Positions 3,742 to 18,334 of a DNA stretch of 18,349 nucleotides are shown here, piece after piece. A program made the position numbers and the translations under genes. The notes below the pieces were generated by a model that did not search any database, had not been told where the DNA came from, and worked only from the letters and a program-made list of their open reading frames with translations. The first letter of the stretch is position 1. Each line of letters starts with the position of its first letter. The DNA is from Solirubrobacteraceae bacterium. Lineage in GTDB: Bacteria; Actinomycetota; Thermoleophilia; Solirubrobacterales; Solirubrobacteraceae. The stretch spans positions 1 to 18,349 of the forward strand of contig JANJUA010000166.1 of the NCBI GenBank assembly GCA_024710825.1, given 5' to 3'.

Positions 3742-5472
3742 TCAGTCGTTGAAGAAGCGCCCTTCGGTCACCTCGGCGACGTAGCCGGCGCGGATCGCGA
3801 AGTCGCCGAAGCGCTCGCCCGGCTCTCGCTCCCGCGCGTAGTGGCCCAGCGTCGCGTCGAGCGCCTCGAGGATCTCGGGCTCGCCGACGTTCTCGAGGTA
3901 CATCTTGTTCAGCCGCTGGCCGTGGAAGCCACCGCCGAGGTAGAGGTTGTACTTGCCGGGCGCGCGTCCGGTCAGGCCGATCTCGGAGATGTAGGGCCGC
4001 GCGCAGCCGTTGGGGCAGCCGGTCATGCGGATGGTGATCGGCTCCTCCTTGAGGCCGTGGGCGTCGAGGAGCGTCTCGATCTTCGTCACCAGGTCGGGCA
4101 GGTAGCGCTCGCTCTCCGCCATCGCCAGGCCGCAGGTCGGCAGCGCGACGCAGGCCATCGAGTTGCGTCGCAGGGCGCTGCGGCGCTCGAGCGCGTCGAG
4201 GCCGTGCTCGGCCATCAGCTTCTCGATGGCGGGGCGGTCGCCGGGCTCGATGTCCGACAGGATGAGGTTCTGGTTCGGCGTGATCCGGAACGTGCCCTTG
4301 TGCACCTCGGCGATCGCGCGCAGCCCGTCCATCATCGGATGCTCGGGCGTGTTGATGACGCGGCCGTTCTGGATGAACAGCGTGCAGTGCTCGCGGCCGT
4401 CCTCGCCGGTGCTCCAGCCGAGCGGATCGCCGTTGGAGGTCAGCTCGTAGGGCTCCGCCGGCGCCAGGGGGAACCCGAGCCGCCGCTCGATCTCCTCCGT
4501 GATCCAGTCGAGCCCCTTGTCGTCGATCGTGTACTTGAAGCGCGCGTGCGCGCGGTCGACGCGATCGCCGTAGTCGCGCTGCACGGACATCACCGCGTCG
4601 ATCGTCTCGATCAGCCGGTCGGCGGGCACATAGCCGATCACGCTGGCCAGGCGCGGGTAGGTCTTCGGCGCCTGGTCGGTGCGGCCCAGCCCGCCGCCGA
4701 TCGCGACGTTGAAGCCCTGAAGCTCGCCGTCGCGGGCGATGGCGATGAAGCCGAGGTCCTGGCTGTAGACGTCGATGTCGTTGCTCGGCGGGATCGCGAA
4801 GCCGATCTTGAACTTCCGCGGCAGGTAGGTGCGCCCGTAGAAGGGCTCCTCGGGGCCCTTGGTGGGCCGCCGCTCGGCGCCGTACCAGATCTCGTCGTAG
4901 GCGCCCGTCTTGTGCGTGGCGTGGTCGCTCGCCCGGACGGCCAGCGCGTGCACCTGGGCGTGCAGTCGCGACAGGTTCGGGTTGACCGTGCACATCACGC
5001 CGCGGGTGTCGTCGCCGCAGGCCGCCTTCGTGTCGAGCAGCACCTCGCGCATGCCCCGGATGACCGTGCGCAGGTCGTGCTTCATGATGTGGTGCAGCTG
5101 GAACGTCTGGCGTGTCGTCAGGCGCAGGGTGTCACCCGCGTAGGCGCGCCCGAGCTCGTCGAGCTTGAGCCACTGGCTGGGGCTGCACACGCCGCCGGGC
5201 AGGCGGACGCGGGCCATGAAGGTGAAGGCCGGCTCGAGCTTCTGGCGGCGGCGCTCGTCGCGGATGTCGCGGTCGTCCTGCTGGTAGATGCCGAAGAACT
5301 TGATGAGCTTGGCGTCGTCGGCCGCCACCGCCGCGGTCACCTCGTCGACGAGGCTCTCCTTGATCGTGCCGCGCAGCTGGTCGCTGTCGGCCTTCAGGGT
5401 CTCGTCGGCGCCGAGCTGGTCGAGCGGCTGGGAGAGGTCCCGGCTGCGATCGGGCTGGGTGTTCGTGGTCAT
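3742..5472 (-). CDS. cysI: Sulfite reductase (NADPH) hemoprotein beta-subunit
   Basis: This 576-residue enzyme reduces sulfite to sulfide with six electrons at a coupled siroheme/[4Fe-4S] centre. The cluster cysteines are C441 and C447 (CVALPTC) and C486 and C490 (TGCPNGC). Their spacing of 6, 39 and 4 is the same as in the E. coli enzyme. The anion/siroheme-binding basic residues appear in ARVRLPGG, LTTRQTFQLH and YLPRKFKIGF. The protein is colinear with E. coli CysI (570 residues) from LIKFFGIYQQDDRD to the C terminus (GERFGDFAIRAGY). The ATG at 5472 follows the cysJ stop by 8 bp with a weak GAGG site, so it is the second gene of a cysJI operon. Nitrite reductases and ferredoxin-type SirA are related, but the adjacent flavoprotein makes the NADPH form nearly certain. 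Confidence 0.97.
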   Translation of the reverse strand: MTTNTQPDRSRDLSQPLDQLGADETLKADSDQLRGTIKESLVDEVTAAVAADDAKLIKFFGIYQQDDRDIRDERRRQKLEPAFTFMARVRLPGGVCSPSQWLKLDELGRAYAGDTLRLTTRQTFQLHHIMKHDLRTVIRGMREVLLDTKAACGDDTRGVMCTVNPNLSRLHAQVHALAVRASDHATHKTGAYDEIWYGAERRPTKGPEEPFYGRTYLPRKFKIGFAIPPSNDIDVYSQDLGFIAIARDGELQGFNVAIGGGLGRTDQAPKTYPRLASVIGYVPADRLIETIDAVMSVQRDYGDRVDRAHARFKYTIDDKGLDWITEEIERRLGFPLAPAEPYELTSNGDPLGWSTGEDGREHCTLFIQNGRVINTPEHPMMDGLRAIAEVHKGTFRITPNQNLILSDIEPGDRPAIEKLMAEHGLDALERRSALRRNSMACVALPTCGLAMAESERYLPDLVTKIETLLDAHGLKEEPITIRMTGCPNGCARPYISEIGLTGRAPGKYNLYLGGGFHGQRLNKMYLENVGEPEILEALDATLGHYAREREPGERFGDFAIRAGYVAEVTEGRFFND

Positions 5473-5480
5473 CGGTTGCC

Positions 5481-7328
5481 TCAGTACACGTCGAGTCGGT
5501 AGCGCCGGTCGCGCTTGAGCGCCGCGAGGTACTCGTCCGCGCCGTCGCGGTCCAGGCCGCCGTGCTCGGCCACGACGTCGACGAGCGCGGTGTGGACGTC
5601 GGGCGCCATGTTCGCGGCGTCCCCGCACACGTAGAGCCACGCGCCGTCCTCCAGCCATGCGTAGACGTCGCGGCCCGCCCGGCGCAGCCGGTCCTGCACG
5701 TACGTCTTGGGGGAGGCGTCGCGCGAGAACGCGAGGTCGAGGCGGGTCAGCGCGCCGCCCTTGAGCAGGTCCTGCCACTCGACCTGGTAGAGGAAGTCGC
5801 TGCGGAAGTTGCGCTCCCCGAAGAACAGCCAGGAGCGGCCGCCGGTGCCGCACGCCTCGCGCTCGTGCATGAACGAGCGGTACGGGGCGACGCCGGTCCC
5901 GGCCCCGATCATGATGATCGGGGAGTCGTCGTCGGGCAGGTGGAAGTGGTCGTTGGACTGGACGTACACTCCGACCGTGGCGTCCTCGTCGGTCAGCGCG
6001 GCGAGGTGGCCGGAGGCGACCCCGGTGCACGCGCGGTCGTGCAGCGCGTAGCGGACGGTGCTCACGGTGAGGTGCACCTCGTCCGGCGCCGCCGCGAGGC
6101 TGGAGGCGATCGAGTACAGGCGCGGCTGGAGCGGCCGCAGGCCCGTGGCGAACCGCTCCGCCTCGAGCCCCGGCACCGGGAAGCGGGAGACGATGTCGAT
6201 GACGTGATGGCCGTGCAGGAAGGCGGTGCGGGCCTTCGCCTGGTCGGGCGCGCACAGCGCCCGCAGCTCGGCTGAGTCGGTGAGCTCGCACCAGAGGTCG
6301 AGGAAGCGCGGGGTCGCGGCGGTGATCTCGAGCGTGGCGCCCAGGGCCTCGCCCAGGGTCGTCGTCTCCTTCTTGACCGTCACCGGCGCGTCGGCGGACA
6401 GACCCGTGCGCTCCAGGAGCGCCTCGACGAGCGCGGGGTCGTTGCGCGGCACGACGCCCAGCACGTCGCCCGGCCGGTAGTCCAGGCCAGAGCCCTCGAG
6501 CGAGAGCTCGACGTGGCGGGTCTCCTTGGTCGAGCCGCGGCCGGTGATGACCGTGTTCTCGAGAACCGCGGCCCGGAAGGGGTTGCGCTTGTCGAACGCC
6601 GGGTGCGGGGCGGCCCCGTTGGTGGCGGTGGGGGCGGACACCGCGACGGCGGGGGGCTGCTCGGGGGGCGCGAGCCGGCCGACCACGTCGGCGATCCAGA
6701 CGGCGGCGTCATCCTCGAAGTCGACGTCGCAGTCGACGCGGTCGCACAGGCGCTGCGCGCCCAGCTCCGCGAGCCGATCGTCGACCCGCTTGCCGGCGAG
6801 GCAGTACTGCTCGTAGGTCGAGTCGCCGAGCGCCAGGACGGCGAAGCGCACGTCCGGCAGCTTGGGCGCCTTGCGGCCCTCGAGGAACTCGAAGAAGCCG
6901 ATCGCGGTGTCCGGCGGGTCGCCTTCGCCGTGGGTGCTGGTGACGACGAGCAGGTCCTGCTCGTCACGCAGCGCCCGCGGCTTGTAGTCGGCCATGTCGA
7001 CCACACGCGCCTCGGTGCCCTTGGCGCGCACTGCGTCGGCGAGCTGGGCGGCCAGGTCCTTGCTGTTGGTCGTCTCGGTGCCGAACAGGATCGTCACCGT
7101 CCGGGTCGACTGCGCTGCCGGGATCGCCGCGGTCCCCGTCGGCGCGAGCGCGGGCGCCCCGGCCGCGGGGGCCGTGGCGAGCACCCCCGCGCGCGCCTGA
7201 TGGCTCAGGCCGGCGAAGTAGCCGCTGAGCCAGATCGCCTGCTCGTCGGTGAGCGAGGTCGCGAGCCGGGTGATCTGCTCGGACTGGTCGGCGGTGAGGA
7301 TCGCGCTGGGCAGTTGCATCATCGTCAT
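5481..7328 (-). CDS. cysJ: Sulfite reductase (NADPH) flavoprotein alpha-subunit
   Basis: This 615-residue diflavin reductase passes electrons from NADPH through FAD and FMN to CysI. In order: an N-terminal segment (PSAILTADQSEQITRL, WLSGYFAG) matching the E. coli N terminus; a flavodoxin FMN domain (about 76-220) with TETTN, STHGEGDPP and LALGDSTYEQYC; a Pro/Ala linker; the FAD domain with RLYSIASS at 403-410; the NADPH site GAGTGVAPYRSF from 475; YVCGD at 566-570; and the typical C-terminal DVY. I chose the ATG at 7328 because MTMMQLPSAIL lines up with the E. coli start (599 residues). There is no good ribosome site there, so ATGs at 7322 or 7319 remain possible. A 175-bp divergent control region lies upstream. 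Confidence 0.96.
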   Translation of the reverse strand: MTMMQLPSAILTADQSEQITRLATSLTDEQAIWLSGYFAGLSHQARAGVLATAPAAGAPALAPTGTAAIPAAQSTRTVTILFGTETTNSKDLAAQLADAVRAKGTEARVVDMADYKPRALRDEQDLLVVTSTHGEGDPPDTAIGFFEFLEGRKAPKLPDVRFAVLALGDSTYEQYCLAGKRVDDRLAELGAQRLCDRVDCDVDFEDDAAVWIADVVGRLAPPEQPPAVAVSAPTATNGAAPHPAFDKRNPFRAAVLENTVITGRGSTKETRHVELSLEGSGLDYRPGDVLGVVPRNDPALVEALLERTGLSADAPVTVKKETTTLGEALGATLEITAATPRFLDLWCELTDSAELRALCAPDQAKARTAFLHGHHVIDIVSRFPVPGLEAERFATGLRPLQPRLYSIASSLAAAPDEVHLTVSTVRYALHDRACTGVASGHLAALTDEDATVGVYVQSNDHFHLPDDDSPIIMIGAGTGVAPYRSFMHEREACGTGGRSWLFFGERNFRSDFLYQVEWQDLLKGGALTRLDLAFSRDASPKTYVQDRLRRAGRDVYAWLEDGAWLYVCGDAANMAPDVHTALVDVVAEHGGLDRDGADEYLAALKRDRRYRLDVY

Positions 7329-7394
7329 GGCGAAGGCTCGGCGGTGGGAGTTGCAGCGCACCGAGGCAGCGCGCTCCGCGGGCATGGTACCGGC

Positions 7395-7430
7395 TATTTG
7401 CCCGAAATGGGATCTGCTTTCGGGACAATA
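7395..7430. promoter_or_regulatory. 13-bp inverted repeat, probable operator for cysJI and/or the divergent gene
   Basis: TATTTGCCCGAAA at 7395-7407 and TTTCGGGACAATA at 7418-7430 are inverted copies matching at 11 of 13 positions. The inner seven bases match perfectly and the spacer is 10 bp. The block is notably AT-rich against its surroundings and lies between divergent genes, 67-102 bp upstream of the cysJ ATG and 74-109 bp upstream of the ATG at 7504. The size and symmetry fit a dimeric regulator. The regulator is not identified; a sulfur-responsive LysR or Rrf2 type protein is a guess from the target. Confidence 0.6.
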
Positions 7431-7490
7431 TCGTCCGACGGGGGTTCGGACACTGGGAATTCGCCCGGTGCGCGACCCGTGTGGGCTGCC

Positions 7491-7496
7491 TAGGAT
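7491..7496 (+). promoter_or_regulatory. Candidate -10 element, leaderless start
   Basis: TAGGAT ends 7 bp before the ATG at 7504 and no Shine-Dalgarno sequence lies between them. Transcription would therefore start at or next to the A of the start codon. No convincing -35 is seen. The same spacing recurs at three other genes here. Confidence 0.45.
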
Positions 7497-7503
7497 CGCC
7501 GCC

Positions 7504-8391
7504 ATGGTCACGGACGTCCCGATACGGCTGCTGGGCGCCGCCATCGCCGCCGCCGCGGCGATCGCCGTGGCCGCGCCGGCGGCGGCCGCGCCTCCGGCGC
7601 CGGACGGCTACACGATGACCGACTTCGATCCGGAGCGTCACAGCTTCCGGTTCGTCAACAGCTGGAACACCGGCGACCTCGCCGTCGACCTGCCGCTCGT
7701 CGGCGGCGCGAGCTTCAAGGGCATCCGTTACGGGCTGTGCGGCGGCATGAGCTTCGCCGCGCTCGACAGCTTCCACGCCGACCGCGTCGTCCCTGCCGGC
7801 CAGACGACCGAGCCGGCCGACGGAACGCCGTTGCGCGACTACGTCTGGAGTCGCCAGATCGACAGCCTCACGGTCGGCGGCGCCGGGGCGCTGGCCCGCT
7901 TCTTGGACTGGCAGTGGAAGCCGCTCGACGACCAGCACCTCTTCGGGGTGCGCGTGCAGAAGGGCCTCAGGACGCTCACCCGCGAGGAGTTCCTCTTCGA
8001 GCTGCGCCCGCGGCTCGCGCGTGGCGAGCCGGTCCCGCTGGGGATGGTGAACGTGTCCGGGTTCACGGAGCCGTGGGGCAACCACCAGGTCCTGGCCGTT
8101 GGGTACCGCAACCGTGGCGACGGGCATGCGTCGATCGCGATCTACGACCCGAACTACCCGATCAGCGCGGCCAACCCGGATGGCATCACGTTCCTGCACA
8201 CCGGCAACCGGCGCCAGACGCTCGGCCCGTCGCCGAACGGGGCCCGCGCGCACGACGGCCGCTTCCGAGGGCTGTTCCGGGCGCCCTACCAGAAGAAGGC
8301 GCCGCCGACGCCGCCGTGGACGCGTCCTGGGGACCGCGTGCAGTTGCGGCCCGGGACGATCGTCGGTCGGCCGGCGCCGATCCGACGCTGA
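7504..8391 (+). CDS. Secreted papain/C39-like cysteine-peptidase-fold protein
   Basis: This 295-residue protein has a signal peptide (hydrophobic residues 8-25, likely cleavage after an Ala run near 29) and should act outside the membrane. Three blocks set out a papain-like Cys-His-Asp/Asn centre: LCGGMSFAALD with C79, WGNHQVLAVGY with H194, and IYDPNYP with D215 and N217. I know these blocks (xLCGGM..., NHQVLAYGY, IYDPN) from a widespread family of uncharacterised bacterial proteins. The triad assignment is inferred from motif order and spacing. The C-terminal 50 residues are Pro/Arg-rich and look like a loose tail. It is transcribed away from cysJ and is followed 54 bp later by a regulator gene. 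Activity, substrate and any link to sulfur metabolism are unknown. Confidence 0.8.
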   Translation: MVTDVPIRLLGAAIAAAAAIAVAAPAAAAPPAPDGYTMTDFDPERHSFRFVNSWNTGDLAVDLPLVGGASFKGIRYGLCGGMSFAALDSFHADRVVPAGQTTEPADGTPLRDYVWSRQIDSLTVGGAGALARFLDWQWKPLDDQHLFGVRVQKGLRTLTREEFLFELRPRLARGEPVPLGMVNVSGFTEPWGNHQVLAVGYRNRGDGHASIAIYDPNYPISAANPDGITFLHTGNRRQTLGPSPNGARAHDGRFRGLFRAPYQKKAPPTPPWTRPGDRVQLRPGTIVGRPAPIRR

Positions 8392-11269: not shown

Positions 11270-11755
11270 TCAGGACAGCGAGATCGCCAACTGCTCCAGC
11301 CGGTCGAAGGCGTCCTGCATGCCGGCCTCCATCCCGGACTCGATGTGCATGTCCCGCGCCTGCGCGGTGGTGTGCTGGACCAGGGTGCGCATCACGGTCG
11401 CTCCGTCGCGCTCGACCAGCGTCATCGTGTTCGTCGACGGGTCGTCGGGGAACGGCTCGAACGTCTCCGTCTGCACGATCCGCTCGTGGGGGACGATCTC
11501 GAGGAACTCTCCGTAGAAGGCGAACTCGTCCCCGCCCTCGGGCCGCATCGCGTAGCGCCAGGCGCCGCCGACGCGGAGGTCGATCTCGCAGGCCGTCATC
11601 TCGCCGCGGCCGGCGTGCCACCAGCGCCGCACGAGCTCCGGCTCCGTGACGGCGCGCCACACGAGCGCCGCGGGCGCCGCGAACTCGCGCTCGATGAGGA
11701 TCTGGTCGTCGGCGGGCAGGGTCACCTTCGCGCTCCCGCTAGTCGCGTGTGTCAT
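11270..11755 (-). CDS. AHSA1/SRPBCC domain protein (START-like fold)
   Basis: This 161-residue cytoplasmic protein has the Aha1-C/SRPBCC (CalC-type) pattern: an N-terminal strand IEREFAAPAALVWRAVTEPELVRRWW, then GGAWRYAM, then YGEFLEIVPHERIVQTETFE, and a long C-terminal helix (ESGMEAGMQDAFDRLEQL). The fold forms a deep hydrophobic pocket for lipids or small molecules; there is no catalytic signature. The ATG at 11755 lies 17 bp inside the end of the ArsR gene, so the two are expressed together. ArsR-AHSA1 pairs are common in actinobacteria, usually with no known ligand. Confidence 0.92.
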   Translation of the reverse strand: MTHATSGSAKVTLPADDQILIEREFAAPAALVWRAVTEPELVRRWWHAGRGEMTACEIDLRVGGAWRYAMRPEGGDEFAFYGEFLEIVPHERIVQTETFEPFPDDPSTNTMTLVERDGATVMRTLVQHTTAQARDMHIESGMEAGMQDAFDRLEQLAISLS

Positions 11756-12089
11756 CGCTGCGCTCCTTCTCGAGGTCTTCCAGGACGTCGTCCAGCAGCT
11801 CGAAGCGCTCCGACCACAGCGCCTCGTAGCCCTTCACCCAGTCGTGGATCGGCTTGAGCGCGCGACCGTCGACGCGATACAGCCGTCGCCGCCCCTCTTC
11901 GCGCGCCTTCACCAGCCCCACCTCCCTGAGCACGCGCAGGTGCTTGGACACCTGCGGCTGGCCGAGCCCGAGCTCTTCCACCAGGTCGCCGACCGCCCGC
12001 TCGCCGCCGGCCAGCAGATCCAGGATCTGCCGGCGCCGGGGCTCGGCCACGGCGTTGAACGGGTCGGTCGTGGTGGCGGCTCGGGCCAT
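11739..12089 (-). CDS. ArsR-family winged-helix repressor
   Basis: This 116-residue DNA-binding protein has an ArsR winged helix: FNAVAEPRRRQILDLLAGG, the recognition helices AVGDLVEELGLGQPQVSKHLRVLREVGLV (32-60) and the wing KAREEGRRRLYRVD. It has no cysteine, so the classical metal-thiolate sites are absent and the inducer is unlikely to be arsenite or cadmium. I chose the ATG at 12089 over the one at 12119. The later start matches the family N terminus (MARAATTTDPFNAVAEP), and the earlier one would translate through the promoter palindrome. It precedes and overlaps the AHSA1 gene and probably represses its own operon. Confidence 0.93.
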   Translation of the reverse strand: MARAATTTDPFNAVAEPRRRQILDLLAGGERAVGDLVEELGLGQPQVSKHLRVLREVGLVKAREEGRRRLYRVDGRALKPIHDWVKGYEALWSERFELLDDVLEDLEKERSDDTRD

Positions 12090-12096
12090 GGCGGAG

Positions 12097-12126
12097 AATA
12101 TATATACCGATATCGGCATATGTCAA
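12097..12126 (-). promoter_or_regulatory. Strong promoter with palindromic operator for arsR-AHSA1
   Basis: On the minus strand TTGACA (12126-12121) is followed after 18 bp by TATATT (12102-12097), and the arsR ATG is 7 bp further on, so the transcript is probably leaderless. The spacer holds the perfect palindrome CCGATATCGG (12107-12116). It extends to a 20-bp dyad at 12102-12121 with 9 of 10 pairs matched. A bound dimer would cover the -35 to -10 region, which fits autorepression by the ArsR protein. This AT-rich patch stands out sharply in the window. Confidence 0.75.
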
Positions 12127-15130: not shown

Positions 15131-15694
15131 ATGTTGATCTACTCGATGGGCGTCTCGGTGGACGGGTTCATCTGCGACCGCCGGGGCGGCTTCGACTGGA
15201 CGGCTCCGATTGACGAGCTGTTCCGCTTCCATCTCGCGCGCGTCGGCGGGCTCGGCGCGTACCTGCTGGGCCGGAGGCTCTACGAGGCGATGCGGGTCTG
15301 GGAGACCGACCCGTCGCTGCGTGACGGCGCGGACGCGAACGAGTTCGCCGACGTCTGGTGCGCGCTTCCGAAGATCGTCTTCAGCCGCACGCTCGACGAC
15401 GTCCAGGGCAACGCGCGGCTGGCCGAGGCCTCGGTGACCGACGAGGTCGCCGCGACGCTCGCCGCGACCGACAAGGACGTCGAGATCGGCGGCGCGGGCC
15501 TGGCCGCGACCGCGTTCGAGCTGGGCCTCGTCGACGAGCTGCGCATGTTCCGCTACCCGGTCGTGGTCGGCGGCGGTACGCCGTTCCTGCCTCCGGTCGC
15601 CGAGGACGTGGCGCTCGACCTGGTCGAGAGCCGTACGTTCGGCTCGCGGGTGATCTACGAGCGCTACCGCCTCGTCCGCGACGCTCCGGCCTGA
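15131..15694 (+). CDS. Dihydrofolate-reductase-like protein (RibD C-terminal fold)
   Basis: This 187-residue protein has the DHFR/RibD-C pattern of the YwjB/YyaP group: MGVSVDGFICDRRGGFDW at the N terminus, YLLGRRLYEAMRVWE, PKIVFSRTLDDVQGNARL, the NADPH loop VEIGGAGLAATAFELGLVDELRMF (with the IGGAG turn), and VVVGGGTPFLPP. It is probably an NADPH-dependent reductase of unknown substrate. Standalone proteins of this group are not folate biosynthetic DHFR. The ATG at 15131 follows GAAGG and starts 4 bp after the membrane gene stop. Its last 31 bp overlap the antisense 3' end of the next gene. Confidence 0.92.
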   Translation: MLIYSMGVSVDGFICDRRGGFDWTAPIDELFRFHLARVGGLGAYLLGRRLYEAMRVWETDPSLRDGADANEFADVWCALPKIVFSRTLDDVQGNARLAEASVTDEVAATLAATDKDVEIGGAGLAATAFELGLVDELRMFRYPVVVGGGTPFLPPVAEDVALDLVESRTFGSRVIYERYRLVRDAPA

Positions 15695-16560
15695 CCCAGC
15701 GCGTCGCGAGCAGCGTCGGCGAAGCTCGTCAGCGGGAACGGGAGCAGCTCTCCGATGCGGTCGTCGCGGACGACCGTCGCGTTGCGCAGGCCCTCGACGA
15801 GCGGGCGGGCGACGCTCGCCCCGACCGGCGTGACGAGGTGCAGCCAGTACGAGGACAGCCGCGGGCTGAGCACCGGCACCTTCACGATCCGACGGCGCTT
15901 GCCGCGCAGCCGAGCGATCTGCCGGATCATCTCCCCGTAGTCGATGACGTCCGGGCCGCCGACGTCGAAGCTCTCGCCCAGCGCCTCGCTCCGGCCGGCC
16001 ACGCCGGTCAGGTAGCGGATCACGTCGGCGAGGGCGATCGGCTGGGTGGGGGTCGAGACCCATCGCGGCGCGACCATCACCGGGAGCCGGTCGACGAGGG
16101 CGACGATGGTCTCGAACGCGGCGCTGCCGTGCCCGACCACGACGGCGGCGCTCAGCGTCGTCACCGGAACCGACGAGGACGACAGCACGGCGCCGGTCTC
16201 CCGCCGGCTGCGGAGGTGCGGGGAGAGGTCCGGCGAGTCGTCGCCGAGCCCGCCGAGATAGACGAGCTGGGAGACGCCGGCGCGCTCGGCCTCGGTGACG
16301 ACGTTCTCCGCCACCTGCCGATCGAGCTCGGAGAAGTCGCGCGCGCCGAGCGAGTGGACGAGGTGATAGGCGACGTCGACTCCCTCGAGCGCGCCGCGTG
16401 TCGACTCGGCACTGGTGAGATCGGCGGCGAGCGAGCGGATGCCGGGGTGCGCAGGCGTGCTCCCGCTCCGGGAGATCGCGACCACCTCGCCGCGCTCCGC
16501 GAGCGCCGGGACGAGGGCGCGGCCGATGAAGCCGGTGGCTCCGAGGACGGCAGCTCTCAC
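15664..16560 (-). CDS. NAD(P)-binding atypical short-chain dehydrogenase (YbjT-like)
   Basis: This 298-residue Rossmann protein has the nucleotide motif GATGFIG at 7-13, an Arg after the second strand (ISRSG), DLTSAESTRGAL, and the family phrases AYHLVHSLGARDFSELDRQVAENV, YLGGLGDD and PRWVSTPTQPIALADVIRYL. Family members often carry a C-terminal DUF2867 domain; at this length that domain seems to be missing. It starts with GTG at 16560, overlapping the stop of the regulator upstream by 4 bp (GTGA), so it is translationally coupled to the B12-type regulator and likely shares its control. Substrate unknown. Confidence 0.9.
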   Translation of the reverse strand: MRAAVLGATGFIGRALVPALAERGEVVAISRSGSTPAHPGIRSLAADLTSAESTRGALEGVDVAYHLVHSLGARDFSELDRQVAENVVTEAERAGVSQLVYLGGLGDDSPDLSPHLRSRRETGAVLSSSSVPVTTLSAAVVVGHGSAAFETIVALVDRLPVMVAPRWVSTPTQPIALADVIRYLTGVAGRSEALGESFDVGGPDVIDYGEMIRQIARLRGKRRRIVKVPVLSPRLSSYWLHLVTPVGASVARPLVEGLRNATVVRDDRIGELLPFPLTSFADAARDALGQAGASRTRR

Positions 16561-17447
16561 GAGGGCTCACCACCGTCCCCGACCAGCGCCATCACGCGCG
16601 CCGCCTCGGCGATCGGGTCGCCGGACAGGGCGAGGGCGCCGCTGTCGTCCAGCACGCCGTTCGCGGCGGCGGCGCCGCCGACCGCGAGCCGTTGCCGGCC
16701 GGCGAGCGCGCGCAGCTGCGGCACGACCGGTTGCAGGCGCTCGCCGCTGACGCCGCTGAGAACCGCCAGGCTCGGATCGCGTCGGCGGCTGATCTCCTCC
16801 ACCGTCTCGATCGGCGAGTCGGCGCCGAGGTAGACGATGCGCCAGCCCCGCGCGCGCAGCGCCAGCCCGAACGCGATCAGACCGAGGTCGTGCTGCTCAC
16901 CGGGCAGACAGGCGAGCACCGCGGTCGGGCCCAGCCCGAGGCCCCAGCCCCGCGCCAGGCCGAGGAGCCGCCCGCGCACGATGCTCGAGGCGAAGTGCTC
17001 CTGGGCGACCGAGGCGTCGCCGCGCTGCCAGCGGTCTCCCAGCTCGTGCAGGTACGGCAGGACGACGTCGCCGAGCAGCGTCTCCACGGTCACCACGGCG
17101 AGCAGCCGGTCGAAGATCGCCTGGGCGCGCGGCTCGTCGAAGCCTTCGAGCGCATCGGCGAGATCGTCGCGTACCGCGTCGGGCCGGAGCGCCGTCGGGG
17201 CCGCTTGGTCGTCGGCGTCGGCTCGCAGGGCGAGCGCCGCCGCCTCGGCGGCGGCCAGGCCGTCGGAGAGGTGTCGGCGCATGACGCGCACCCGCTCCAC
17301 GTCCGCGGGCGTGTAGAGCCGGAGCCCGCCGGTCGAGCGGACCGGGCGCAGGAGCCCGTATCGGCGCTCCCATGCGCGCAGCAGCTCGGGGCTCACGCCC
17401 GATCGCTTGCTCAGCTCGCCGATTCGGAGGACTCCGTCGCCGTCCAT
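16557..17447 (-). CDS. CarH/LitR-type MerR regulator with adenosylcobalamin photoreceptor domain
   Basis: In this 296-residue protein a MerR winged helix (LRIGELSKRSGVSPELLRAWERRYGLLRPVRSTGGLRLY, residues 7-45) is followed by a four-helix cap and a Rossmann B12 domain. The cap has the Wx9EH signature (W140, E150, H151). The B12 domain has ExHxxG (E184, H186, G189; H186 is the expected lower cobalt ligand), then YLGADSP and GVSGERL. Proteins of this class bind adenosylcobalamin, repress as tetramers in the dark and release DNA in light. The residue after W140 is Gln, where Thermus CarH has His132. I chose the ATG at 17447; it is 7 bp after a -10 box, so probably leaderless. An in-frame TTG at 17474 would run through the promoter. 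Confidence 0.93.
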   Translation of the reverse strand: MDGDGVLRIGELSKRSGVSPELLRAWERRYGLLRPVRSTGGLRLYTPADVERVRVMRRHLSDGLAAAEAAALALRADADDQAAPTALRPDAVRDDLADALEGFDEPRAQAIFDRLLAVVTVETLLGDVVLPYLHELGDRWQRGDASVAQEHFASSIVRGRLLGLARGWGLGLGPTAVLACLPGEQHDLGLIAFGLALRARGWRIVYLGADSPIETVEEISRRRDPSLAVLSGVSGERLQPVVPQLRALAGRQRLAVGGAAAANGVLDDSGALALSGDPIAEAARVMALVGDGGEPS

Positions 17448-17454
17448 GCCCACA

Positions 17455-17485
17455 ACTATACGGCTTCTGGACAAGAGCTTGACAA
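17455..17485 (-). promoter_or_regulatory. Promoter of the CarH-like gene, 19-bp spacer
   Basis: On the minus strand TTGTCA (17485-17480), a 19-bp spacer and TATAGT (17460-17455) precede the ATG at 17447 by 7 bp. A 19-bp spacer is the typical overlong spacing of MerR-controlled promoters. Its -35 overlaps the -35 of the divergent promoter, so the two cannot easily be used at once. Array 1 of 11-bp repeats lies across it. Confidence 0.7.
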
Positions 17486-17490
17486 CTCGC
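17458..17490. promoter_or_regulatory. Array 1: three 11-bp-phased repeats over the carH-like promoter
   Basis: ATACGG at 17458, GGACAA at 17469 and TGACAA at 17480 begin consecutive 11-bp units sharing the core (T/G)AC(A/G)(A/G). They cover the spacer, -10 edge and -35 of the regulator's own promoter and the -35 of the divergent promoter. CarH tetramers are known to contact tandem direct repeats with this period, so this is a likely autoregulatory operator; binding is inferred. Confidence 0.6.
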
Positions 17491-17508
17491 GACGGGCGGC
17501 GCTACCGT
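17479..17508 (+). promoter_or_regulatory. Promoter of the DUF378-FAS1 unit
   Basis: A perfect -35 TTGACA (17479-17484), an 18-bp spacer and TACCGT (17503-17508) predict a transcript start near 17515, about 30 nt before the ATG at 17546. It is divergent from, and overlaps at the -35, the promoter of the CarH-like gene. Confidence 0.65.
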
Positions 17509-17550
17509 ACGGAACATGGACAACATCCGTACAGGAGGTGGACAGATGAA
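17507..17550 (+). promoter_or_regulatory. Array 2: four 11-bp-phased repeats from the -10 into the ribosome site of DUF378
   Basis: GTACGG at 17507, GGACAA at 17518, GTACAG at 17529 and GGACAG at 17540 start four consecutive 11-bp units with the common core G(T/G)AC(A/G)(A/G), the same core as array 1. Together they cover the end of the -10, the start site, the leader and the AGGAGG ribosome site. A bound CarH tetramer here would block the DUF378-FAS1 promoter in the dark. The repeats are seen directly; the binding protein is inferred from the adjacent gene. Confidence 0.6.
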
Positions 17551-17821: not shown

Positions 17822-18334
17822 ATGAAGAGGATCCGTATCGCCGCCGCCGCCGTGGCCGTCGCCTCAGCCGTGGCGGTCGCCGGTCCCGCGAGCGCCGGCG
17901 CTCAGGAGGGCGCGGCCGCGGCGGCCGCGAAGAAGACCGTCGTCGAGACCGCGGTCGACGCAGGGCAGTTCGACACCCTGGTCTCGCTCGTGAAGAAGGC
18001 GGGCCTGGCCAAGACCCTGAGCGGCAAGGGCCCGTTCACCGTGTTCGCGCCGACGGACGCGGCCTTCGCGAAGGTTCCGAACGGCGTCCTCGACGAGCTG
18101 GCCGAGGACAAGGCCAAGCTCCGCTCGGTTCTGCTGTACCACGTCGCGGGGAGCAAGCTGCCCGCGGCGAAGATCGCGGATCGGAGCTCGGTCAAGACGC
18201 TCAACGGCCAACGCGTCCGCGTCCGCACCCAGGGCAAGACCGTGCGGGTCGGCGACGCCCGGGTCACCACCGCCGACGTCGGCGCCTCGAACGGCGTCAT
18301 CCACGTCATCGACAAGGTCCTGATCCCTCGCTAG
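17822..18334 (+). CDS. Secreted single FAS1 (fasciclin) domain protein
   Basis: This 170-residue protein has a signal peptide (KRIRI, then a hydrophobic Ala/Val core, likely cleavage after ASA-GA near 25) and a single FAS1 domain from about 39 to the end. The conserved H1 block FTVFAPTDAAFAKVP is at 72-86, then YHV with LLYHVAGSKL, and the H2 block SNGVIHVIDKVLIP at 156-169. This domain mediates adhesion or ligand binding outside the cell; the mycobacterial MPT70/MPB83 proteins are single-domain relatives. AGGAGAGG ends about 6 bp before the ATG. No cell-wall anchor is seen, so it is probably released. Only 15 bp of unassigned sequence follows it in the window. Confidence 0.95.
   Translation: MKRIRIAAAAVAVASAVAVAGPASAGAQEGAAAAAAKKTVVETAVDAGQFDTLVSLVKKAGLAKTLSGKGPFTVFAPTDAAFAKVPNGVLDELAEDKAKLRSVLLYHVAGSKLPAAKIADRSSVKTLNGQRVRVRTQGKTVRVGDARVTTADVGASNGVIHVIDKVLIPR

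Follow-up and report, generated by a model that had tools for sequence, protein, structure and literature searches.

The carH-DUF378 intergenic region holds two arrays of 11-bp repeats

The window, that is the whole stretch of 18,349 nt that was analysed, contains a gene for a CarH-like regulator and, divergent from it, a DUF378-FAS1 gene pair, and a preliminary description of this DNA had reported seven copies of a short core, (T/G)AC(A/G)(A/G), in two arrays between them. This raises the question whether the arrays are operators of the neighbouring photoreceptor and, if they are, which promoters and which genes they would control. By scanning the window with KACRR, all seven cores were recovered, although each starts one base further downstream than had been reported, at 17459, 17470 and 17481 in array 1 and at 17508, 17519, 17530 and 17541 in array 2. 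An eighth core at 17491 is out of the 11-bp phase. The exact spacing of 11 bp inside each array was borne out by a period scan, in which period 11 alone yields runs of four and three cores and the longest run is two at all other periods from 5 to 20. It was also borne out when the 98-bp intergenic region was shuffled 100,000 times with its dinucleotides preserved: no shuffle gave a run of four or more at period 11 or the 4 + 3 arrangement at any one period, and a run of four or more at some period from 5 to 20 appeared in 11. In the host assembly (3.04 Mb, 90% complete), the relaxed triple pattern NNDACR-N5-TNDACA-N5-NNDACR has three matches, two of which are array 1 and array 2, and its reversed control has one. 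The shuffles together with the genome-wide pattern counts rule out a chance origin of the phased cores.

According to the accessible text of PMC9304148, the CarH operator consists of tandem 11-bp direct repeats, nnnnTnnACAn, full or partly degenerate, which overlap promoter elements, and a full repeat is defined as TnnACA. The proposal that the arrays are CarH-type tandem repeats of about 11 bp agrees with this published unit: four of the seven repeats are full and three (TATACG, CGTACG and CGTACA) are degenerate (Table 1). Array 1, with two full repeats and one degenerate repeat over likely promoter elements, has the form of a CarH operator and passes a strict test for TnnACA arrays, whereas array 2, in which only two of the four repeats are full, fails it.

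Table 1. Coordinates of the features around the two repeat arrays in the window
Feature	Position	Strand	Remarks
NmrA-like NAD(P)-binding protein gene	15664..16560	-	Pfam match; 4-nt overlap (GTGA, 16557-16560) with the carH stop
carH, 296 aa	16557..17447	-	MerR DNA-binding and cobalamin-binding domains; Wx9EH, ExHx2Gx41SxVx23GG
Putative carH -10, TATAGT	17455..17460	-	7 nt before the ATG at 17447; spans array 1 repeat 1
Array 1 repeat 1, TATACG	17457..17462	+	Degenerate
Array 1 repeat 2, TGGACA	17468..17473	+	Full TnnACA
Array 1 repeat 3, TTGACA	17479..17484	+	Full TnnACA; also the putative DUF378 -35
Putative DUF378-FAS1 -10, TACCGT	17503..17508	+	18-bp spacer; TAnnnT geometry in 20/52 loci
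Array 2 repeat 1, CGTACG	17506..17511	+	Degenerate
Array 2 repeat 2, TGGACA	17517..17522	+	Full
Array 2 repeat 3, CGTACA	17528..17533	+	ACA kept, without T
Shine-Dalgarno-like AGGAGG of DUF378	17533..17538	+	Between array 2 repeats 3 and 4; shares one base with repeat 3
Array 2 repeat 4, TGGACA	17539..17544	+	Full; one base 5' of the start codon at 17546
DUF378 small membrane protein, 82 aa	17546..17794	+	Pfam PF04070
FAS1 (fasciclin)	17822..18334	+	Pfam PF02469; PDB relatives; signal-peptide-like N-terminus by eye

The neighbouring regulator is a member of the CarH family

The carH product contains the Pfam domains MerR_1, B12-binding_2 and B12-binding, and its best solved relatives are PDB 3whp and 5c8d (E about 3e-36), the latter of which is named CarH; we take both to be the CarH of Thermus thermophilus. 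The adenosyl-capping motif Wx9EH is present from W140 to H151 (WQRGDASVAQEH), and W140, E150 and H151 are invariant in all 16 aligned proteins. The full cobalamin motif ExHx2Gx41SxVx23GG lies at residues 184-258. As Wx9EH and ExHx2Gx41SxV/Tx22-27GG are the motifs by which CarH homologues are defined (PMC8156234, accessible part), the protein has the domain architecture and both signature motifs of CarH (class I LitR), and the assignment of this gene as CarH-like is well founded. Within the same genus an orthologue is 72% identical to it, and an orthologue from a different genus of the family is 74% identical. Two matches to the PF01923 adenosyltransferase, which would supply adenosylcobalamin, were found in the host genome, and none to the PF02572 type.

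At the position of His132 of the T. thermophilus protein (TtCarH), the light-state ligand, the window CarH carries Gln (residue 141; 17025-17027, - strand). Among the 66 homologues of the 73 loci that could be parsed, this position is Glu in 22, Ala in 19, Gln in 8, Ser in 8, His in 3 and other residues in 6. With His there in only 3 of 66, TtCarH and its bis-His light state may be an exception among the homologues. In the accessible CarH literature this His is not given as family-defining, and the H132A variant of TtCarH is described as mostly keeping its tetrameric state on illumination, which contradicts an earlier report that the same paper cites (PMC10442372, accessible part). By analogy, light release by the window CarH could be weaker or different.

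The 11-bp phase is kept across carH loci while the spacers drift

A family scan detected carH in 35 of the 146 family genomes (E up to 1e-50). Loci were taken for 31 of the 39 family matches (8 were without a locus), seven came from the order (two more order matches were without a locus), and 50 were taken from at least 80 matches in named genomes, of which 30 distant ones were left out. Removal of 15 duplicates from these 88 loci left 73 carH loci, and the 200 bp upstream of each was read on the strand of the divergent gene. In these upstream regions, 108 TNDACR pairs are 11 bp apart, 49 are 22 bp and 12 are 33 bp apart, compared with an average of 2.06 pairs for each remaining distance between 6 and 40; mononucleotide shuffles (500 rounds) gave, for distance 11, a mean of 0.24 and a maximum of 3. 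At least two phased cores occur in 54 of the 73 regions and at least three in 31, counts that are not independent events because the loci are mutually related. Dinucleotide shuffles (200 rounds) gave on average 0.5 and 0.0 such loci, respectively, and among 2676 random non-overlapping segments of the same loci, 13 had at least two phased cores and none had three or more. The array-bearing records include Solirubrobacter, Conexibacter, Kribbella, Nocardioides, Gaiellaceae and Acidimicrobiales. The 19 loci without a strict array of at least two cores encode proteins with 31-52% identity to the window CarH; other loci of similar identity do bear arrays.

To the six aligned loci with DUF378 (L001, which is the window, L069, L008, L070, L009 and L072), array 1 contributes T..ACA letters with 97% pairwise identity and 5-bp spacers with 43%; in array 2 the identity is 77% for the cores and 52% for the spacers, and ACA is kept in 18 of 18 instances across the last three repeats. 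The operator pattern is thus conserved alongside carH in related genomes, and both the 73 upstream regions and these six-locus identities bear out the prediction that an orthologue alignment would keep the 11-bp phase while the intervening bases drift. Strict two-array designs occur in 19 of the 73 loci, a count that leaves out the window because two of its array 2 repeats are without T, and the second array is reversed in four of the 19 (L012, L071, L079 and L080).

Promoter-like hexamers lie at fixed distances from the repeats

In the 52 loci with forward arrays, the hexamer TAnnnT stands 17-19 nt past the last core in 20, and it was found 4 times at 21 other offsets (8 to 31). Of the 20 loci, 16 have TTGACA as their last core and 7 have TACCGT as the hexamer. 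Because the offset of TAnnnT after the last core is fixed, repeat 3 of array 1 (TTGACA) is likely to be the -35 element of the divergent gene, which in the window would give TTGACA-18-TACCGT as the DUF378-FAS1 promoter. A formal scan that required at least 4/6 matches in each hexamer returned no promoter here; the DUF378 -10 matches 3/6.

On the carH strand, TAnnnT spans the first core in 25 of the 52 loci, and 24 of these 25 have an in-frame ATG or GTG 6-8 nt beyond it. A hexamer 2 nt nearer to carH is present in 14 of the 52 loci, 8 of them in common with the 25, so that either hexamer is present in 31. With the -10 across repeat 1 and the start codon 6-8 nt away, the carH transcript is probably leaderless, its -10 lying inside array 1 repeat 1.

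These positions modify what had first been described. Array 1 had been placed over the regulator's own promoter, and its first repeat does overlap the likely carH -10, but the array would serve the divergent DUF378 promoter as well, for which repeat 3 is the likely -35. Array 2 had been drawn from the DUF378 -10 to the ribosome site; it begins at the -10 as described but reaches past the ribosome site to the start codon. Judged from these positions, array 1 appears to serve both promoters, and array 2 looks like a second operator that spans the DUF378 -10 to its start codon.

Genes next to carH

Twelve of the 73 loci have DUF378 as the divergent gene, at 116-166 nt from the carH anchor, and inspection by eye revealed L072 as a further DUF378 locus that is ended by a contig edge. 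FAS1 follows or replaces DUF378 in 15 of the 73 loci, at 135-636 nt from the anchor and always divergent. A Pfam tally of the first divergent gene, which covers 44 of the 73 loci and whose automatic pick missed DUF378 in some, counted DUF378 7 times, amine oxidase 6, fasciclin 5, sigma-70 region 2 5, PRC-barrel 4 and epimerase 4. On the carH side, the NmrA-like gene is probably part of the carH transcript. Relatives of it lie downstream of carH on the same strand in 5 of the 73 loci, directly after it in 4 (the window and three Kribbella loci), where they start 855-866 nt from the anchor. The literature listed for DUF378 indicated no function. The PDB relatives of the FAS1 protein include AstaP 8c18 (8e-11) and several FAS1 chains with better scores, such as 1w7d (2e-29) and MPT70 (8e-21).

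Two other places in the window were noted. An AHSA1/SRPBCC gene (Pfam) at 11270-12119 (-) adjoins a small ORF that by eye resembles an ArsR-type regulator, and a flavodoxin/FAD/NAD reductase gene (Pfam) at 5481-7544 (-) is followed by a frame at about 3742-5500 (-) that by eye is sulfite/nitrite reductase-like.

Arrays elsewhere in the genomes

Three phased TNDACR units have 62 matches in the 146 family genomes and 21 in the reversed control (summed by eye); a carH start adjoins 25 of the 62, so the triple pattern alone is noisy. Rows of three TNDACA units stand at a carH start in 19 of 23 cases (counted by eye). Of the matches in carH genomes that do not lie at a carH start, five were surveyed. 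In G104, which is rated 7% contaminated, the array of contig C454 (1502-1529) lies 113 bp before a second fasciclin frame (1643-2239, L203) and contains TTGACA followed after 18 bp by TAGACT; this contig is other than the two that carry carH in that genome. The array on C282 of the same genome is near an MMPL gene. The arrays on C100 of G116 and C201 of G117 are near short-chain dehydrogenases, and that on C265 of G117 is near a frame without a Pfam match, beside a RibD_C gene. With a looser pattern, an array in G027, about 3 kb from carH, was also found to adjoin a short-chain dehydrogenase.

Many of these genomes also contain TTCAC-type triplets that share the 11-bp period (e.g. G000, contig C102, 238-265) and would confuse a loose search for CarH arrays. 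The final genome pattern bars C at the third base and so leaves such triplets out.

Alternative explanations of the arrays

Array 1 might be the only operator, with the cores of array 2 being a by-product of promoter and ribosome-site sequence (TACCGT, AGGAGG and the start codon). The two T-less repeats of array 2 fit this explanation, as does a spacer identity (0.52) that is nearer to that of the cores (0.77) than in array 1, although this is partly because AGGAGG sits in a spacer. Against it stand the strict two-array designs, four of which have a reversed second array that translation signals would not explain, and the finding that in the six loci the ACA of the last three repeats stays constant while the nn positions and some ribosome-site letters vary. 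We therefore consider this explanation unlikely, though it is the strongest of the alternatives. Less probable still is a CarH-like repressor that acts on the repeats independently of B12 and light, as CarA of Myxococcus xanthus does. CarA and CarH share operators (PMC9304148, accessible part), and the window CarH has Gln in place of His132; but the B12-independence of CarA is largely due to the absence of Wx9EH (PMC8156234, accessible part), and the window CarH has both this motif, with its invariant residues, and the cobalamin motif intact.

Classical MerR-type activation of either promoter by CarH, in place of repression, would accord with its MerR family membership and with the 18-bp spacer of the DUF378 promoter. 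Yet the repeats are direct and, instead of forming a palindrome between -35 and -10, they lie over the -35 and over the stretch that starts with the -10, which makes activation very improbable. The arrays might finally belong to another regulator that uses 11-bp direct repeats, such as PhoP with its PHO boxes. PHO boxes are built of GTTCAC units, and the TTCAC-type triplets that the looser pattern finds in the same genomes presumably resemble them. The arrays themselves are without any TTCAC, and the carH start is where most three-TNDACA rows stand; the core sequence rules out the PHO-box reading, and any other owner of the arrays we regard as barely conceivable. A pair of CarH operators is the reading that we retain.

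Comparison with known systems

The window CarH resembles that of T. thermophilus in its MerR-B12 architecture and both signature motifs, and the operator of that species likewise has three tandem 11-bp TnnACA repeats, one of which includes the -35 (PMC9304148, accessible part). The window differs in having DUF378-FAS1 as the divergent genes, two arrays and Gln for His132. Operators of Bacillus megaterium and myxobacterial CarH proteins also combine full and degenerate repeats, three to five in number, over the -35 or -10 (PMC9304148, accessible part), whereas in the window one target promoter is enclosed by two arrays, the first of which also contains the likely carH -10. No description of paired arrays in one intergenic region was found in the accessible text of PMC9304148. 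The region is thus probably an operator of the known CarH kind, in a double form and with an output that we did not find described: searching the open literature, we recognised no account that links CarH/LitR to a fasciclin output and none of CarH in Conexibacter.

FAS1 proteins have been tied to light-driven oxidative stress in other bacteria. In the accessible parts of the sources, the FAS1 gene RSP_1409 of Rhodobacter is linked to photooxidative stress (PMC7074977), and a fasciclin of Azospirillum is placed under RpoE-ChrR in the same stress (PMC10949492, citing Dubey 2021). The fasciclin gene of the strain of PMC10949492 itself shows no expression under changing light, which speaks against a general rule. 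Unlike in Rhodobacter and Azospirillum, where other regulators act, a photoreceptor-repressor would act directly in the window.

Published regulons of CarH consist of carotenoid-synthesis genes, a feature that does not define the family; here the neighbours are DUF378-FAS1. Phytoene/squalene synthase (PF00494), the sole carotenoid family searched, has no match in the host genome, a 90% complete draft. It was undetected in 16 of 42 carH genomes, and in 13 of the 27 with at least 90% completeness and at most 5% contamination. Of the family genomes that carry DUF378, four (G000, G001, G024 and G074) are without PF00494 and three (G153, G163 and G104) have both; one of the four, Conexibacter arvalis DSM 23288 (G024), has the same DUF378-FAS1 arrangement as the window. 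Carotenoid binding by the window FAS1 in the manner of the AstaP fasciclins is disfavoured, as it shares the FAS1 fold with them but scores higher with 1w7d and MPT70, and as no phytoene/squalene synthase was found in its genome.

A proposed light switch

We consider it highly probable that the back-to-back promoters of this region contain a double CarH operator, by which DUF378-FAS1 is repressed in the dark and released by light. In the dark, CarH loaded with adenosylcobalamin would sit on the tandem 11-bp repeats along one face of the DNA. On the three repeats of array 1 it would cover the carH -10 together with the DUF378 -35, and on the four of array 2 the stretch between the DUF378 -10 and the start codon. 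Because array 1 covers both promoters and array 2 the stretch from the DUF378 -10 to the start, DUF378-FAS1 would be shut off twice over and carH would repress itself. Light would break the Co-C bond and make CarH leave the DNA, which would permit transcription of the DUF378-FAS1 operon and of carH with the overlapping NmrA-like gene. DUF378 and FAS1 may then protect the cells in the light, and the sense of the circuit would most likely be light-induced surface protection or aggregation.

More broadly, we lean slightly towards the view that the CarH proteins of Thermoleophilia and other Actinomycetota act independently of carotenoid synthesis, as light switches for genes of the cell surface and of photooxidative stress (FAS1, DUF378, short-chain dehydrogenases, MMPL, PRC-barrel and sigma-factor genes), and are kept in lineages without a detectable phytoene synthase, with two operators that bracket the target promoter and lock a leaderless, self-repressed carH. 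Accessible accounts of CarH present it as a regulator of carotenoid synthesis, and it is the basis of green-light optogenetic tools. With a conserved CarH operator before DUF378-FAS1 in genomes in which phytoene/squalene synthase was not detected, the photoreceptor would have a second output, fasciclin proteins would have a direct light input, and the locus would provide a compact two-way light-controlled promoter.
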